NCBI GenBank assembly: GCA_009602725.1
Contig: WELB01000017.1
Location: forward strand, 218,667 to 264,436
Direction: 5' to 3'
Source of the DNA: Spirogloea muscicola
Taxonomy: Eukaryota; Streptophyta; Zygnematophyceae; Spirogloeales; Spirogloeaceae
Length of the DNA: 45,770 nt
The number at the start of each line of letters is the position of its first letter. Positions within the stretch are counted from its first letter, which is position 1. A program made the translations under genes and the position numbers. Below the pieces are notes generated by a model. It made no database searches, was not told the origin of the DNA, and was given only the letters and a program-made list of their open reading frames with translations. Of this stretch, positions 30,261 to 44,331 are shown one piece after another.

Positions 30261-33159
30261 ATGGACGGCGCCGCCGCAGCCGCCGCCGCGCTGCGCCGCA
30301 GCAATGGCAGCGGCGGCGGCGGCATGTACGTCGTCACCAGCAGCCTGCTCAGCATCCTGAGCTGCGCGGAGCAGCACCGCCACTTCCGCGTGAACCTCGA
30401 CGCGCAGATGCAGCACGACGGCCAGCCGGCGCCGCCGCCGCCGCCGCAGGAGCTGCTGCTGCAGGCGGCCAGCACCTCGCATGGCGGGGCCAGCGACGAG
30501 CTCTCGTACCACGACGACCAGCTGCACGGCCTCGCCTTGGGCGGCGCTGCCATGGACCCGGACCAGGACGACATGGCGTCCATCCTCGAGGCCTTCTACG
30601 TGGCCGACCCCGGCCAGTCTGAGGGCAACAGCCGCGTCAGCACCACCTCGGCTTCGGCAGCCACAGACCCCGCAGGTCGGCCAGTTGCATGTGGAGAGAT
30701 AACGGAAGCTGAAGCTGCCTGAAAATGTCTAGGCCGACAAGCACCATGGCTCCTGCCTGTGTATACACTGATGTACATGTTCATCAGGCTTTCTGACTGG
30801 TTTGGATGTCCAGTCTCCAAGCTGCGTCTGGTCACAATAAGATTGGCATATCTCACACGGAGGTGGTGCCGCAGACTCAGGCCTTGATCGGCCGAGGCTG
30901 GCCCGCCGCCGGGTGTCCGAGAGGAAGCGGCCGGCAAACAGCACGAGCTGCTTCAGGGGCGTCACGCACCACTGCCGCACTGGGAGGTGGGAAAGCCATA
31001 TCTGGTGAGCTTTTCTGCCACTCCAAATCTCCTCTTATGCGCACCAGCTGTCTGGCCGGAGTCTGATTGCAAAGTCGTCACAGCCTGTCTCGAGGAACTC
31101 GACTAGTTTGTGACGAGGTCGTTACGGATGCTATAAGGGGCACGCACAGCAATTACAGCGGTCAGCATGCGCTCAATTAGTACCTCCATGTGTAGGGAAA
31201 ATGGAAGGCAGCTCTACCTCGGTGGCTTTGACTCTGGTAAGCTTGAGTGTCAGACCTCTCAGGAGCTACTCTAGACCAGCATGTCCAGCAGCAGCACTTG
31301 CTCAATGTCGATGATGAGAGTGAGCTTAGCAGAGCAGCATCGAGGCCCTATATTTTGGGTTTGACAGTTCGCTATCATATTAAGGGACATGTTGTCGAGG
31401 CAAGAGACTGCCAGGTCGGCAGGTCCTGTCCATCTCTGCTGTGGGGCTCCCTTGTGTTGTCCATGTGCAGAGGAGCAGGCTGCTCTCGCCTATGACATAG
31501 CTGCCATCAAGTGCAGGTAGGCAAGCTGCACATTCTGGAGTCCCCTGGCAGCCTTACATCAGCAAGTTGCTCGTGAATGACACAACTTTGTGCAGTCGAA
31601 GCGGTTTATGAGTATTCAATCATTCAGTGCTGAGACTTGCATCTCGCTAAGGTCAACCTCAGCTTTCTTTACTGTCAATTACATGTTTAAGGACCTGCAC
31701 AGTCAACAACTAACAAGGAAGGTATGGCCACCTTGGGGTCATCGACCTACTGTGTGCAGAGGAACTGGTGCTGTCACGAACCTGTCCATTGACAACTACC
31801 GCCCCCACTTTGCTGAGATCTGTGAGCATCCTGGAGCACCAACATGCAACCTGCTCTAGCCGTGTGAGCTAAGAGCATCAAGCTGTGCGTGCCCCACCGC
31901 GGAATCGGATCTCTGGGGTATCCGTGTCAAGTCCTTCACGCAGAATAGGTGACAGGACAAGCATCAAACCTGTTGGTAGCTGCGGTGTCAAAGGAGGAGC
32001 TGGTCATATCCCTTCGCCGACATAGCAAAGGCTTCTCGCGGGGTTCCTCTCGCTATCGAGGAGTCACACGTCATCAGAAGGTCGATGCAGAGCTTTTGCT
32101 AAAATAGTTTTAGTCCTTGACTTGCCAGCTGCTTCAGCACTAAATCATGCAAGTCCTGCTTGCACGGATTCTGCTCAGTGCAACTGGACAACTGACATAT
32201 ACTTCGACGCAAGCACATTACTGTTGCTACTGCATGCCTAGCTGATAAGTGATTGGAGTCATCCTTCGCCTATCAGGCGACAACCAGAGATACCTTCTGA
32301 TCGCCCACTACCGTCTGTACAGGGCAAATGGGAGGCAAGGATTGGTCAGCTTCAAGGGAAAAAGTATATGTACTTAGGCCTGCACGACACCGAAGAAGAG
32401 GCTGCAGCCGCCTACGATTGCGAAGCCATCAGGTATCATCGGCTTGCCAGCGCGGCTGCAGCATGCCTGGCCCGTGCCTGCAGCTCTGATTACCAACAGT
32501 ACAGTCAGACTCATCCCAGTGTGACTCACGGATGATGACCACACTGAGCAGGCAGAAAGGGCAACAAGCGGTCACCAATTTCGATATTGCCCTGGTCAGC
32601 TGCTGATCTCCAGCTCTGCGTAGCTTGTGTTGCTTCAAAGGGCTTCTGGCTGCGCAAGCTACTGCTGAGTTCTGCGACAGAAAGAATAATATAGCCACAT
32701 CGCCCTCATCCAACATTCTTCTCAATATCGTTGTTGGATCACGATAGTCACCTTTCAATTCCAGATGATTTTGGGGGCAAATCGTTGATGAGAAACACTG
32801 GTGTATGCATGGTTGCTATGACTGCCGATGGACAGTACTCGGCGGCGCCCAGTAGCCAGCACCAGCGATCCCAGGAGGAGATGGCTCTGCATCATCACCT
32901 CCAGCACCAGGAGCTCCTTGGTGAAGCCCAGGGCGAGATACTGGCAGACCACCCCTCCTTCGGGCAGCCCTCGGACCCGGGGGGCGGGAGGCAAAGTGAG
33001 AGCGACAGCCCACCATTCCTCTCAGCCTGCTTCGAGAGCCGACCCTTGGGCCTGGCAGCCAAGAGGCGGATGCTGAGGAAGCAGAAGCAGCACCTGCGAT
33101 GGCCATCTGTTGAGCAGCGTGCGAGGGCACGGCATGACACCTCCTCTGCTGGCAACTGA
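30261..33159 (+). CDS. Two-AP2-domain transcription factor, euAP2-like
   Basis: DNA-binding regulator of the AP2/ERF superfamily, AP2 subfamily. Exons 30261-30675, 30875-31004, 31196-31236, 31471-31516, 31760-31821, 31980-32080, 32323-32432, 32552-32594, 32695-33159 close in phase at 470 residues. Repeat 1 is built from three small exons: [48 protein letters not shown], then [13 protein letters not shown]. The linker [20 protein letters not shown] is typical of the subfamily. Repeat 2 reads [59 protein letters not shown]. Repeat 1 lacks the roughly 10-residue insertion of AINTEGUMENTA proteins, so it is closer to euAP2. Basic residues before repeat 1 ([12 protein letters not shown]) may be a nuclear signal. 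The first Met is uncertain: the frame is open upstream and an ambiguous base sits at 30141. The acceptor of the last exon is also less sure. Confidence 0.88.
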
Positions 33160-33912
33160 AGAGCGCTGACTCACCCAGCTTAAAGCGGTTTACTCTTCGA
33201 GCTAGTTAGCACCTATTCTGTGCAAGGTCAACCGTAATTACAGAAGAACGCTTGCACTTGCAATCATTTGCACTCTTTGAGCTGATCTCAATAATGCATG
33301 CTGCATCAAGCTCAACCATGGTCCGTGACTATGGGAGGCTTCCTGCAGCATGTACTCTTCCCTTCTGGAATTTAGTAAATGGAGAGGCTCCAAAGGTTCA
33401 TCAACACATCACAATATAGGAAGATCTGCAATATCCTGCTTCCCTGAAGCCTCCCTGGGGGTCGACTTGAGCTTCTTAGCTGTTGGTGCAGAACGTTGTC
33501 TAGTTTTGGCAAGAACTAAGTAAAGACCTTGTCCTGATGTCGTCAACCACAGAGCAGAAGTCATGGAGGCAATGCGAAGCTTCCTGAAGATATCTCAAGA
33601 AAAGTTAAAGACCTCATTGGATGCTGAGATGTACACATAAACAAGTACGCCGCAACATGAGAATAATGTCAAATAGTAGGCAATGACTTGTGCCTGTGCT
33701 GGTTCATACAGAGAAATTGATGAGGCAATTGACTTGTGCAATTCCCAATAGCGGAACTACGAGCAGGCCTCACTCAGTGCACAGTAAACTCCATCAAAGG
33801 TTGTGCAAGCTCGTCCAGATCTCAGGTGCTTTAGGAGCACAGCCAACGATACAACCACAACATTGCCGTCCCATAGGTCCTAGCTGCACCTGCTCACATG
33901 CACACAACAACT
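33160..33912. other. Intergenic stretch between the AP2 gene and the THI4 riboswitches
   Basis: Convergent 3' ends. No gene or structured element recognised beyond the likely 3' UTRs; the THI4 transcript must pass at least to 33913 to include the third aptamer. Confidence 0.45.
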
Positions 33913-34002
33913 CGGCACACTCCCTACGCAGGAATTATCCTGATCAGGTGACAGGGTATAATCTCAGCCCGAGCACTGATGCTCGAGCACCCCTGGTGCC
34001 AA
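33913..34002 (-). promoter_or_regulatory. TPP riboswitch aptamer, third (distal) copy behind THI4
   Basis: Read on the - strand: P1 formed by TTGGCACC and the closing GTGTGCCGA, then GGGGTGC, a compact P3 hairpin (CGAGCATCAGTGCTCG), the invariant CTGAGA in GGCTGAGATTATACCC, ACCTGATCAGGATAAT, and CTGCGTAGGGA. All conserved THI-box blocks are present in order, so the aptamer looks intact. Confidence 0.93.
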
Positions 34003-34091
34003 AAGTGAGTCAGTACAGGTGTCGTCAAAGACATCAAAGAATGACAGAGGCAGCCTGTTTCCTGGGAACACAAATAAAGAACACAACCCAT

Positions 34092-34183
34092 TGGCACACT
34101 TCCTTCGCAGGCATTATCCTGATCAGGTCTTGGGGTATGATCTCAGCCCAAGCAACAGATCTGCTTGAGCACCCCCGGTGCCA
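34092..34183 (-). promoter_or_regulatory. TPP riboswitch aptamer, second (middle) copy behind THI4
   Basis: Read on the - strand: TGGCACCGGGGGTGC, a P3 hairpin with arms CAAGCAGA and TGTTGCTTG, GGCTGAGATCATACCCC, ACCTGATCAGGATAATGCC, CTGCGAAGGAA, closing GTGTGCCA. The core matches the other copies, but P3 is unrelated in sequence, so the copies are not a recent duplication or assembly artefact. Confidence 0.93.
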
Positions 34184-34256
34184 GATGGTCGTACGTCAGT
34201 ATCAGAACAGACACCACAAGCAGCATAGACCACCAGACAATGAGATCAAGACAGAC

Positions 34257-34368
34257 AAGGCACTTCCCTCCGCAGGCATTATCCTGATCAGGTTGTAAGG
34301 GTATAATCTCAGCCCGCATCATGCAAAGGCCAAAAGCCTTGCAGTATGCCGGGCACCCCCAGTGCCAA
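34257..34368 (-). promoter_or_regulatory. TPP riboswitch aptamer, first (proximal) copy behind THI4
   Basis: Read on the - strand, about 190 nt after the THI4 stop codon: TTGGCACTGGGGGTGC, a longer P3 arm (GCATACTGCAAGGC..GCCTTTGCATGATGC), GGCTGAGATTATACCCTT, ACCTGATCAGGATAATGCC, CTGCGGAGGGA, closing AGTGCCTT. All ligand-binding blocks are conserved. TPP aptamers control THI4 in several green algae and fungi through splicing or 3'-end choice. Confidence 0.94.
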
Positions 34369-34560
34369 CCAACCAAAGCAAGCACACTGACAACAAAGAC
34401 AATACTGTCCGCCTGTCTGTCAGGCTCACGCCTAGCACTCCTCACATCCATCACTGTGCACACTATTGCTCATTGTTTTTACTACTGATGCAAGCAATGC
34501 AAATGATCAGTCTGGCAGGAAATAGTGCAGCACAGGAGGAGGGTAAGGCATAGTTGGCGG

Positions 34561-36230
<1,670 letters not shown>

Positions 36231-37021
36231 AGATGAGTGCAAGCGAGAGGGAGGGCTGAGAGCGGCAGGAGCGGCGGCGGCGGCGGCGGCGGCGGTCGTC
36301 GCGGCGGCGGCGGTGTGGAGCTGAAGGAGAGTAATGGCTAATAGAGGCTTGGCACTGCACCGCAGCCGCAGAATTAAGGGGAAAGCAGGTGCCTGCTGCC
36401 GGGGCCCATCGCGGCCCGTGTCCATCAGCTGCCTGTCACTATCACTGTGCTTTCCCGTGCGTGAAGTGAGCACTTTCAAGTGTGGGCCAAGGGCTGTGAA
36501 ACGAGAAGGGGCTGTGAAAGGCAGGCCAGCCCAATAACAAACTTGAATGGCAGTCTCCAGCTAGCGGTGCAGACACGGGACGTCCCTCCAGCAATGCGCG
36601 CTTGGCCCCCTTCTGCCAAGACCGGCCCCGGGTGCATGCGCGACGAGTGACGTGTCGCGGTGATGGCGGATGCCGTCGTCGTCCCGTCGGTCGTCGTCGC
36701 GACCGCTCGAGATAGAATCCGAGCCCTGGGCTGATCCCTCTCGACGGGGGGCCCTTGGCATCCCGCCGTCGTCGTGGCTAATGCCGCCTCACGCCGTCAC
36801 TGCTCGGGCTCGTGCTCGCCGCGGCGATCCCGACCGCCTCGTCTCACTGGTGGGAGCGGGTCTTCTGAGAACAAACGGGCTCCGACGCTAGCTCCCTTCT
36901 AATTTAGGGCCTGTTTACACTTGTGAGAAAGAGCCCCCCCCCCCTTCCACTAGGGGTCCCGTCTGAGGACGACGAACATCGAGAAAGCATCAGTGTGTCC
37001 CCGCCTCCCTCCCTCCGCGCC
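36231..37021. promoter_or_regulatory. Shared intergenic region of divergent THI4 and THIC
   Basis: About 790 bp between start codons, holding both promoters and 5' UTRs. It contains one reverse-oriented unit of the dispersed hairpin repeat (see 36485-36536) and a C-run at about 36934-36944. I recognise no TATA box or operator with confidence. Confidence 0.55.
36485..36536 (-). repeat. Unit of the dispersed GGGCTGGC/CAGCC hairpin repeat
   Basis: On the - strand it reads TTGGGCTGGCCTGCCTTTCACAGCCCC, matching the units clustered at 27.7-29.7 kb; a second CACAGCCC follows. It lies in the THI4/THIC promoter region. Confidence 0.6.
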
Positions 37022-41009
<3,988 letters not shown>

Positions 41010-41411
41010 TTGGACTACTAAATACGTGAGTGGCCTATAACCACCATATACATGAGTGCGTGCAAATCCGGTATGTCTCCTTCTGCATTCCAGATATGTG
41101 CAGTGTGCATGCTTCAAGCATCTGTTGTGCTGTAATCAAGAACTCTGCAACTTGCCATAATCTCCTTCGTCCCCTACGTTCTCAGTCGTCTCTACTATGG
41201 GCTTTTGCAGGTACCAGAGCATCACGCATATGCAGCTCAGGGCTGATTTGAGTTGGATGCTCGTTTTCAGAGGCTGCTGTAGTCTGCATGCTGAGTCGTA
41301 CTGGTCATAGACTGCTCTTGGATGCGCCACAGGAGGCTTGTCTGCCCTAGACCTTGGAACAGCAGGTTGCATTGGATTGTTTTCCATTTGAGAAGAGTTG
41401 TGGCTAACTAT

Positions 41412-41535
41412 TTCGGCACCGGGGGTGCTTGCTTGAGGTTCACCATCCCCAATACAGGGGGTGGTGACTGAGAGCAGGCTGAGAGAGTCCCTTACAACCT
41501 GACCAGGTTAAGACCTGCGGAGGGAGTGTGCCGAA
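41412..41535 (+). promoter_or_regulatory. TPP riboswitch aptamer downstream of THIC
   Basis: P1 pairs TTCGGCAC (41412-41419) with GTGTGCCGAA (41526-41535). Between them: GGGGGTGCTT, a long P3 arm (GGTTCACCATCCCC..GGGGGTGGTGACT), GGCTGAGAGAGTCCCTTA, ACCTGACCAGGTTAAGACC and CTGCGGAGGGA. Every conserved block is present. In land plants TPP binding here changes 3' UTR splicing and gives an unstable long transcript; a TGTAA motif at 41752-41756 could be the distal poly(A) signal. Confidence 0.94.
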
Positions 41536-42000
41536 TATTCGTTGTGGTTTGTGCTGTGCAGGACTTTGCAGACGTTCATGTGCAGGTCGTAATCAAGTGG
41601 AGGACTGCAATTACTGTTTCACATGTCAGGCATCTTGCATTGATAGCTTGCTATGTTCACTTTCTTTTGTTGCATCGTTACGCTCTTGCATGCAAGAGCG
41701 TCCTTGACTAGTAAGGTGGTTGCATCGTGTTAGATCAAGCATCTGGCCAACTGTAAAGCGTGTGGTCAGTGGGCGTGGTTTTAGTCTAGTAGCAAGGATA
41801 GCTGGATGGGCTGACTAGCACCTCCGTTTTGTCAAGTGGACGGGATGCGACGTCCCTCTTGCTGCTTGTATTGAAAATAAAACGAGACAACCGCTTTGCT
41901 ATTCTGAGACATAGCTTGGCATAGGCTGGGTTGTTGTCTGCGCTGCAGCGCAGGAAGTACTTAGCTTCATGTAAGAAGCAGCGTGGTATTTGTCTCCTTT

Positions 42001-42975: not shown

Positions 42976-44331
42976 GTGGGGTCGTGGAAGAGCATGGAGA
43001 TGGAGATCGAGGCGCTGCTGGAGAAGCTGCTGGACGTGAACGACGCCATGGGCCGCTGCATCGCCGCCACCACGTCCACCACGTCCGTCACGCAGAAGCT
43101 CGCCCGCCACCGCGACATCCTCCACGAGTTCACGCAGGTCTGTCCCAGCACGCCCCATGCCACTGTGCTTGCCTATGCTGCGGCCATGGAGACGGCGGCG
43201 ACGACGACTGCCCACGTCTCACGGCGGTGCTCATGAAGGAGGCCGGTGATGGAGGCCTCCATGGTGACATTGTGTTGGCGGTCGGTGCTGGAGCCGACTG
43301 CAGGAGTTTCGACGGACCAAGGGCAACATCCGCTCGCAGAGGGAGCACGCGGAGCTGCTCGTCTCGGTCCGCAACGACATCAGCGAGTACAAGGTGGCTC
43401 CTTCCGCCTGGCTCGCATGCCAACCTTCAGCTTGGCCTGCATACAAAGACTGCCGAATGCCAAAGTGGCGGCAAGTCCATTGCAGCGTCCCTGGCTGTTG
43501 ATGGTGGCTTCCCGAGCATTTCTGAAGTTCTGTATTGAGCATGGCCAGCTTTTGATCCTGACGTCCTCCCTGTCCGCCAGCTTAGAACAAGCACATAGCT
43601 TGTCAAAGACAGGTCATTGTTCACATATTCCGTAGCAAGGTCTTGAGCCAACTGTCTGCTTCAGCACCAGCTCCGTGCAGATTCCGCAATTTACAGCAAC
43701 TTTGCATGGTTCATCTCTATATTGTCAGCAGGCCTCTGCAGGGGGCGCATCTCCCATGCCTGGCCTGCTCCGTGAGCGGGGCGCCATCCATGGTAACATT
43801 GCGCAGGTACTGTCCAGGTCGTGCATGCAGCACTATGCGCCAAGATACACAACCTTGCACCACTAGAGTAGGATTCTGTCACTGATTTTGAGTCACTTGG
43901 TCTGCAGATTGACGAGGTCATCAGTCAGGCGGAGGCCACCAAGGGGGCGCTGGCGGCACAGAAGACCCTGTTCCTGGATGTTCAGTCCCGGCTTAAGGTC
44001 CTCGGAGACCGCTTCCCAGTTGTACGAAATATACTAGGCAAGGCCCTCGACTTGCCTACCATGATGGCCCATCATGCATCTTTTGATGTGCTGCCATTTT
44101 GGTCCTCAGTCCAGAATCAGCATCACATTGTCTCATCCAGCCCTCACCTCATGCTCGCCAGTCAGGCAATCCACAGCATCAGCTCAGAACCTGGTCAAAA
44201 CTCCTCAGCCTGCATCTGCAACGCGTGGTGCAGGTTCGATTCGGAGACGACGGAACAGGGACACAATTATCCTTTCGGCTGTCATCACGGCCTGCACGCT
44301 CTTCCTGATCATCTATTGGTTATCAAAATGA
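42687..44331 (+). CDS. GOS1: Golgi Qb-SNARE, GOS1/GOS12-like (5' end missing at an ambiguous base)
   Basis: Tail-anchored SNARE for transport to and within the Golgi. Exons 42687-42765, 42899-43137, 43304-43393, 43732-43806, 43908-44037, 44234-44331. Landmarks: EARRLEGDLDVKLSSYAKLG at the N terminus, SWKSMEMEIEALLEKLLDVN, TTSVTQKLARHRDILHEFTQ, EFRRTKGNIRSQREHAELL, RNDISEY, LLRERGAIHGNIAQIDEVI (SNARE motif), VQSRLKVLGDRFPVVRNIL, and the C-terminal anchor DTIILSAVITACTLFLIIYW. The fit to plant GOS12 is close except for a poly-Gly run (about 42940-42970). The start codon and first dozen residues are absent; the sequence breaks at an N at 42685. The last intron has a GC donor (TAG|GCAAGG). A TGTAA poly(A)-type motif lies 100 bp after the stop. 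Confidence 0.92.

Follow-up and report, generated by a model that had tools for sequence, protein, structure and literature searches.

Three complete TPP riboswitch aptamers stand in tandem behind the THI4 gene of Spirogloea muscicola, on the strand of the gene, in the 45,770-nucleotide stretch of DNA that we analyzed as a whole (hereafter the window). As judged from sequence comparison, the triplet is real, old and conserved, and its function as a riboswitch is putative. The first-pass annotation of this DNA had proposed such a triplet but had overlooked a fourth aptamer, which lies 3′ of the neighboring THIC gene. According to a 2022 review, TPP riboswitches are the only class convincingly shown to function naturally in eukaryotes (PMC10043782), and in the accounts covered here the eukaryotic examples are mostly single. 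Relative to those accounts, in which TPP tandems are already known from bacteria and a pair from Saprolegnia, a eukaryotic TPP array of three is new; no other eukaryotic triple was found in the open-access literature searched, outside which most subscription journals fall. The triplet has the look of a known gene switch in a natural form with several sensors. Being natural and present in three copies of the locus, it makes the stacking of eukaryotic riboswitches for a steeper or wider response testable, and it is relevant to thiamine-controlled expression in algae.

Genes and aptamers of the thiamine locus

The window contains two thiamine-synthesis genes, both of which have TPP aptamers 3′ of them:

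34561..36230, minus strand: THI4 (thiamine thiazole synthase) coding region, 5 exons (36230-35982, 35833-35462, 35293-35198, 35094-34882 and 34725-34561)
34259..34366, minus strand: TPP aptamer 1, P1 to P1, with a long P3 arm and a P2 without AG (RF00059, 72.0 bits)
34093..34182, minus strand: TPP aptamer 2, P1 to P1, with P2 = CACCGGGGG, without AG (RF00059, 63.1 bits)
33914..34000, minus strand: TPP aptamer 3, P1 to P1, with P2 = CACCAGGGG, containing an acceptor-like AG that ends at 33993 (RF00059, 63.8 bits)
37022..41009, plus strand: THIC (phosphomethylpyrimidine synthase) coding region, 10 exons
41415..41532, plus strand: THIC TPP aptamer, P1 to P1 (RF00059, 55.9 bits)

The exon borders of THI4 and THIC were set by eye and checked by open frames and protein matches. 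The spliced THI4 model (364 amino acids) matches the Pfam family Thi4 with 379 bits and has 1rp0, Thiazole biosynthetic enzyme, as its top PDB match (1e-162); the spliced THIC model (653 amino acids) matches ThiC_Rad_SAM with 605 bits and PDB entry 4s25 with E = 0. Both reading frames are open in all three genomic copies of the locus (see below), and in all three the genes are arranged head to head, with 791 bp from start codon to start codon (36230-37022), possibly forming a two-gene thiamine cluster with a shared promoter. The THIC intron 3′ of the seventh exon, at 39878, is seemingly of the GC-AG type (AAAG/GCAAGT, with the slash marking the splice junction).

Two further features flank these genes. 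An open frame on the plus strand (32731-33159) is convergent with THI4 and has an end that is well conserved between the copies, as seen by eye; a Pfam search gave no match for it. Should it be a gene, the THI4 3′ UTR would be at most ~1.4 kb long. On the other side, exons at 42991-44331 resemble a Golgi Qb-SNARE, which we take to be of the GOS1 type; the one short piece of these exons tested against Pfam was without a match.

Family membership and structure of the aptamers

When the whole window was scanned with cmscan and the Rfam TPP model RF00059 (gathering score 54.3), a check that the first-pass annotation had itself suggested, three matches and not fewer were obtained on the minus strand (34370-34248, 72.0 bits; 34186-34082, 63.1 bits; 34004-33903, 63.8 bits). 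All three score above the cut-off and cover model positions 1-105 in full, and their E-values (2.4e-12 to 3.5e-10) rule out a chance origin. The same scan of the window identified the fourth aptamer on the plus strand (41411-41543, 55.9 bits). The limits first assigned to the triplet, 33913-34368, proved right within 2 nt, and the spacing, estimated at about 181-185 bp, agrees with the start-to-start distances of 184 and 182 nt. Aptamer 1 starts 195 nt after the THI4 stop codon and aptamer 3 ends 647 nt after it; from strand and distance, the aptamers are probably within the THI4 mRNA.

Among the motifs initially described as common to the triplet, CTGAGA, ACCTGATCAGGATAAT and CTGCG are indeed present in all three aptamers, but the AGGGA block is not, as aptamer 2 has CTGCGAAGGAA (the AGGAA form) where aptamers 1 and 3 have AGGGA. 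We considered whether aptamer 2 is decaying through this form and rejected the idea: the same A occurs in 36, and G in 82, of the 118 exact matches listed for this P4/P5 motif in prokaryotic genomes, a set that may include duplicates, with at least one pair seemingly identical. The pyrimidine-binding CUGAGA and the pyrophosphate-binding GCG motifs, with functions as given in PMC9544697, are found in all 12 aptamers of the three locus copies. The cores had also been called nearly identical; they are alike, but with P3 left out only 61 of 70-71 positions agree (61/71 for aptamers 1 and 2, 61/71 for 1 and 3, and 61/70 for 2 and 3).

In all 12 aptamers, every pair of P1, P2 and P5 and pairs 1-3 of P4 are standard, while P4 pair 4 is non-standard in nine of them. 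All six P3 pairs are standard in aptamers 2 and 3, and pairs 5-6 are non-standard in aptamer 1; in the THIC aptamer, whose longer arm was kept in the same register as the others, P3 is non-standard at four of the six positions tried. At the first pair of P2, aptamer 1 and the THIC aptamer have G-U, aptamer 2 has G-C and aptamer 3 has A-U. At the fourth pair of P3, aptamers 1 and 3 have G-C where aptamer 2 has A-U. Predicted pairing is thus kept between paralogous aptamers despite sequence change. By score and motifs, the THI4 and THIC aptamers are members of RF00059 and are predicted to bind TPP.

Age and constraint in three genomic copies

A search of the genome (153 Mb in 471 contigs) found the locus three times. 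The copy in the window is on contig C17 and the other two are on C33 and C285, and every one has three THI4 aptamers and one THIC aptamer. The genome yielded 12 TPP matches up to E = 1 from the 49 candidates scored out of 3764 at first look, and in a separate scan all eight aptamers on C33 and C285 reached at least the RF00059 gathering score. The order of the THI4 aptamers is identical across the copies and their spacing nearly so. Sequence identity between the copies, which may be homeologues or diverged alleles, is 92.6-93.3% over 10 kb with gapped columns excluded, and between them THI4 and THIC have a dS of 0.055-0.101 and a dN/dS of 0.03-0.15. Since the same triplet is present in all three copies, the tandem duplication predates their split, in line with the old duplication originally suggested for it. 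GRAS-domain matches in the genome number 92 (counted as exon pieces), and several groups of them are seemingly threefold by eye; GRAS proteins are a sign of a streptophyte and not of a chlorophyte alga. The host lineage appears to belong with land plants, and a genome triplication in Spirogloea muscicola is mentioned in PMC7994812.

To compare rates of change, we counted variable columns among the three copies, excluding gapped columns and setting the aptamer limits within 1 nt of those listed above. Variable columns make up 1/106 of aptamer 1, 4/90 of aptamer 2, 3/86 of aptamer 3 and 3/117 of the THIC aptamer. The corresponding counts are 5/78 and 10/89 for the linkers between the THI4 aptamers, 26/187 from the THI4 stop codon to aptamer 1, 152/632 downstream (33879-33200) and 309/2553 for the introns of THI4 and THIC. 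Pooled, the THI4 aptamers (8/282) have fewer variable columns than the introns (Fisher, p = 1.4e-7) and fewer than the two linkers (15/167; Fisher, p = 0.007); linkers against introns gave p = 0.27 (Fisher). Taken singly against the introns, aptamers 1, 2 and 3 have p = 3.8e-5, 0.029 and 0.010, respectively (Fisher, uncorrected). The first-pass view that all three have been under continued constraint is therefore borne out by the pooled test but less so for aptamer 2, for which constraint by itself is only nominal and would fail correction for three tests. Five of the eight variable aptamer columns, placed by eye, fall in P3 arms or loops. Gene conversion among the copies could mimic constraint.

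Splice-like and poly(A)-like signals around the aptamers

Splice-site matrices were built, with two pseudocount settings, from the 13 donors and 13 acceptors of THI4 and THIC in the window, so few that the scores are rough. All splice scores quoted here come from one setting; as a reference, the genes' own acceptors score 3.9-10.8 and their own donors 6.0-10.4. The following candidate sites lie around the aptamers:

34195..34199, minus strand: CTGAC, putative branch-site-like element 5′ of aptamer 2, in all three copies
34062..34064, minus strand: CAG/G, putative acceptor-like site 3′ of aptamer 2, lowest score over the copies 6.3
34009..34013, minus strand: CTGAC, putative branch-site-like element 5′ of aptamer 3, in all three copies
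33993..33995, minus strand: CAG/G, putative acceptor-like site inside P2 of aptamer 3, lowest score 5.1
33890..33892, minus strand: CAG/G, putative acceptor-like site 3′ of aptamer 3, lowest score over the copies 7.2
41404-41408, plus strand: CTAAC 5′ of the THIC aptamer
ending at 41561, plus strand: CAG/G 3′ of the THIC aptamer

CTRAC, the usual plant branch-site form, has a background of 0.00175 per base. In all three copies it ends 12, 8 and 6 nt before P1 of aptamer 2, aptamer 3 and the THIC aptamer, respectively, and an acceptor-like AG ends 31, 24 and 29 nt after P1 of the same aptamers. For aptamer 1, the preceding 25 nt lack CTRAC and the 41 nt that follow lack CAGG. Behind aptamer 1 runs an AG-free tract of 92-93 nt, which is suggestive only (0.9-1.7% of mononucleotide shuffles are AG-free).

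Acceptor-like sites scoring at least 6 in all three copies number 5 per 5072 intron strand-bases, true acceptors excluded, and one such site lies directly behind each of aptamer 2, aptamer 3 and the THIC aptamer. Conserved sites of at least 6 number four in the THI4 stretch 33200-34560, where those at 33694 and 33584 are not behind any aptamer, and seven in the THIC stretch 41005-41800, where the sites other than 41561 are 41210, 41365, 41506 (inside the aptamer), 41571 (just behind the aptamer, additional to 41561), 41585 and 41629. With acceptor-like sites so frequent in these 3′ UTRs as a whole, those by the aptamers are less remarkable than the intron rate suggests, and as the pattern of CTRAC and acceptor was spotted post hoc and aptamers 2 and 3 are paralogues, we treat the sites as leads. 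The unequal distribution of these elements among the aptamers leans toward the first-pass idea that each alternative splice or poly(A) site has a decision of its own.

Another difference concerns P2: aptamer 3 has an AG there in every copy of the locus, and aptamer 1, aptamer 2 and the THIC aptamer have none. In green algae and plants, this P2 AG is an alternative acceptor (PMC9544697).

On the donor side, the sole GT between the stop codon and aptamer 2 that is aligned in the three copies and scores at least 2.5 is at 34233, a conserved but weak (4.5) donor-like CTG/GTGGTC behind aptamer 1. Its GGUGGU can pair, by eye, with ACCAUC just 5′ of aptamer 2, which could also lengthen P1 of that aptamer; constrained folding gave no consistent switch for this pairing.

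For poly(A) signals, AATAAA is absent from the searched THI4 3′ flank, and TGTAA, the usual signal of chlorophyte algae, occurs behind THI4 at 33675 in two copies, with no position common to all three. Around the THIC aptamer, TGTAA is kept in all three copies at 41131 and 41752, before and after it. The THIC 3′ UTR also has a strong, conserved acceptor-like TTTTGCAG/G that ends at 41210, ~200 nt past the stop codon, with a lowest score of 10.3; GTGAGT at 41026 or GTATGT at 41071 are candidate donors for it, as if there were a separate 3′-UTR intron ahead of the THIC aptamer (41010-41415).

A putative plant-type switch with three sensors

When TPP is low in plants, the THIC aptamer blocks a 5′ splice site that lies upstream of it, the intronic poly(A) site stays and expression is high; at high TPP, the 5′ splice site is freed and the poly(A) site is spliced out, giving a longer, less stable mRNA (PMC10226581). 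The THI4 aptamers are likewise 3′ of the stop codon and on the sense strand, the position of the plant type, and this position together with the likely lineage leads us to expect the plant THIC outcome for THI4. We consider it fairly probable that the THI4 3′ flank is a plant-type 3′-UTR TPP riboswitch with three sensors in series, although with a P2 AG in one aptamer of three and no donor singled out it would be a variant and not a standard member of that type. Our confidence is kept moderate because the aptamer of diatom PtTHIC, the sole diatom 3′-UTR TPP aptamer tested in PMC9544697, looked sound and yet gave no regulation.

By analogy with plant THIC, TPP binding would favor splicing in the THI4 3′ UTR at the expense of an early poly(A) site, and the spliced product would be a longer, less stable THI4 mRNA. 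THI4 would thus be made only when TPP is short. The enzyme is a single-turnover (suicide) enzyme (PMC9544697), for which tight control is of obvious benefit.

We looked for the switching region in silico. Complementarity between the stretch from the stop codon to aptamer 1 and P4/P5 was within that of mononucleotide shuffles in eight of nine comparisons (shuffle fractions 0.04 to 0.60; one of nine beats the 5% level). The best GT window, GTGAG near 34429 paired with aptamer 1, reached -20.0, -19.2 and -12.2 kcal/mol in the three copies, as raw energies uncalibrated against shuffles. When the 3′ UTR was folded under constraints, there was no donor or acceptor with a consistent change of exposure in the three copies, except for the P2 acceptor, which is masked by construction.

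On weaker grounds, the aptamers may do different jobs. Aptamers 2 and 3 and the THIC aptamer, each between a branch-site-like CTRAC and a CAG/G acceptor-like site, could gate an acceptor: the TPP-folded aptamer would hide the inner AGs and bring the branch site and the downstream acceptor together, and folding of aptamer 3 would also mask the acceptor-like AG in its P2. Aptamer 1, without such sites, may control a donor or simply be an extra sensor, and the response through two or three serial gates would be steeper or wider than through one. We put forward only tentatively this array of divided labor, in which two sensors gate their own 3′ splice sites and the first either gates a donor or adjusts the other two. 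If true, it would let a gene with spliceosomal introns respond to the vitamin in a graded or cooperative way.

Possible, but to our minds doubtful, is an arrangement in which three sensors of equal rank act pseudo-cooperatively on one shared decision and so steepen the response, as has been suggested for many TPP tandems of bacteria. One ligand class is represented three times on one strand, and reviews interpret tandems of riboswitches for a single ligand as pseudo-cooperative or more digital switches (PMC9481103, PMC2258182). However, the local signals are unlike between the aptamers, and in bacterial TPP tandems each aptamer apparently has its own expression platform (PMC2258182).

It is rather unlikely that only one aptamer switches while the other two are redundant or passive. 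The switcher would then be aptamer 3, the only one with a P2 AG in all three copies, and aptamers 1 and 2 would have been left over from the duplication, with a minor role or in slow loss, which would suit the p = 0.029 of aptamer 2, the weakest single evidence of constraint. Yet aptamer 1, which has no acceptor, is the least variable of the three (1/106, p = 3.8e-5); all three score above the Rfam cut-off in each copy with all P1, P2 and P5 pairs kept; and the THIC aptamer also lacks a P2 AG.

Quite improbable is a triplet that binds TPP and no longer regulates THI4, for which PtTHIC provides a precedent (PMC9544697) and with which the failure of complementarity and constrained folding to reveal a switching region would agree. 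Such a loss fits poorly with the retention of all three aptamers, less changed than introns, in three copies, and with a lineage that apparently belongs with plants, whose 3′-UTR TPP riboswitches do regulate (PMC10226581). Finally, the chance that the triplet is an assembly artefact of collapsed or duplicated reads is negligible, as the same three diverged aptamers sit on three separate contigs of ~93% identity, whereas artefactual copies would be alike.

Comparison with known TPP riboswitches

At least two complete aptamers of the same class adjoin one gene on one strand here, as in a tandem riboswitch. In bacteria, 213 representatives of tandem TPP riboswitches have been reported, including one triple (PMC9481103), and TPP triples are also listed for some thiamine genes of Bacillota, at a frequency of a few percent (PMC12452182). 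Like these tandems (e.g. in Bacillus anthracis), which have several aptamers per transcript, the array favored here is multiple, but the bacterial ones are in front of the gene and this one is behind a spliced eukaryotic nuclear gene. As candidates for an expression platform of their own, aptamers 2 and 3 have an acceptor-like site behind them and aptamer 1 does not.

Among eukaryotes, Saprolegnia NMT1 has a pair of TPP aptamers thought to have originated by duplication (PMC5882874); they are two and are in 5′-UTR introns of an oomycete gene, against three in the 3′ flank of THI4. Micromonas clade D genes have TPP riboswitches in both UTRs (PMC4260697), so that more than one per algal gene occurs there as here, but at opposite gene ends and not in tandem.

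The closest counterparts are in plants. The 3′-UTR riboswitch of THIC in Arabidopsis and others shares with the locus both the aptamer family and the place 3′ of a thiamine gene, and the THIC aptamer of the window matches it in gene as well as position. The differences are that plant THIC has one aptamer per gene in the accounts covered here (PMC10226581) and there are three behind THI4 here, and that the P2 acceptor AG of the plant type is missing in three of the four aptamers. The THI1 (THI4) riboswitch, lost in angiosperms and some gymnosperms, occurs in other plant taxa (PMC10226581), and in the non-seed plants it accompanies the same gene as the triplet. With a host lineage that apparently belongs with land plants, the locus bears on the origin of the plant THIC switch.
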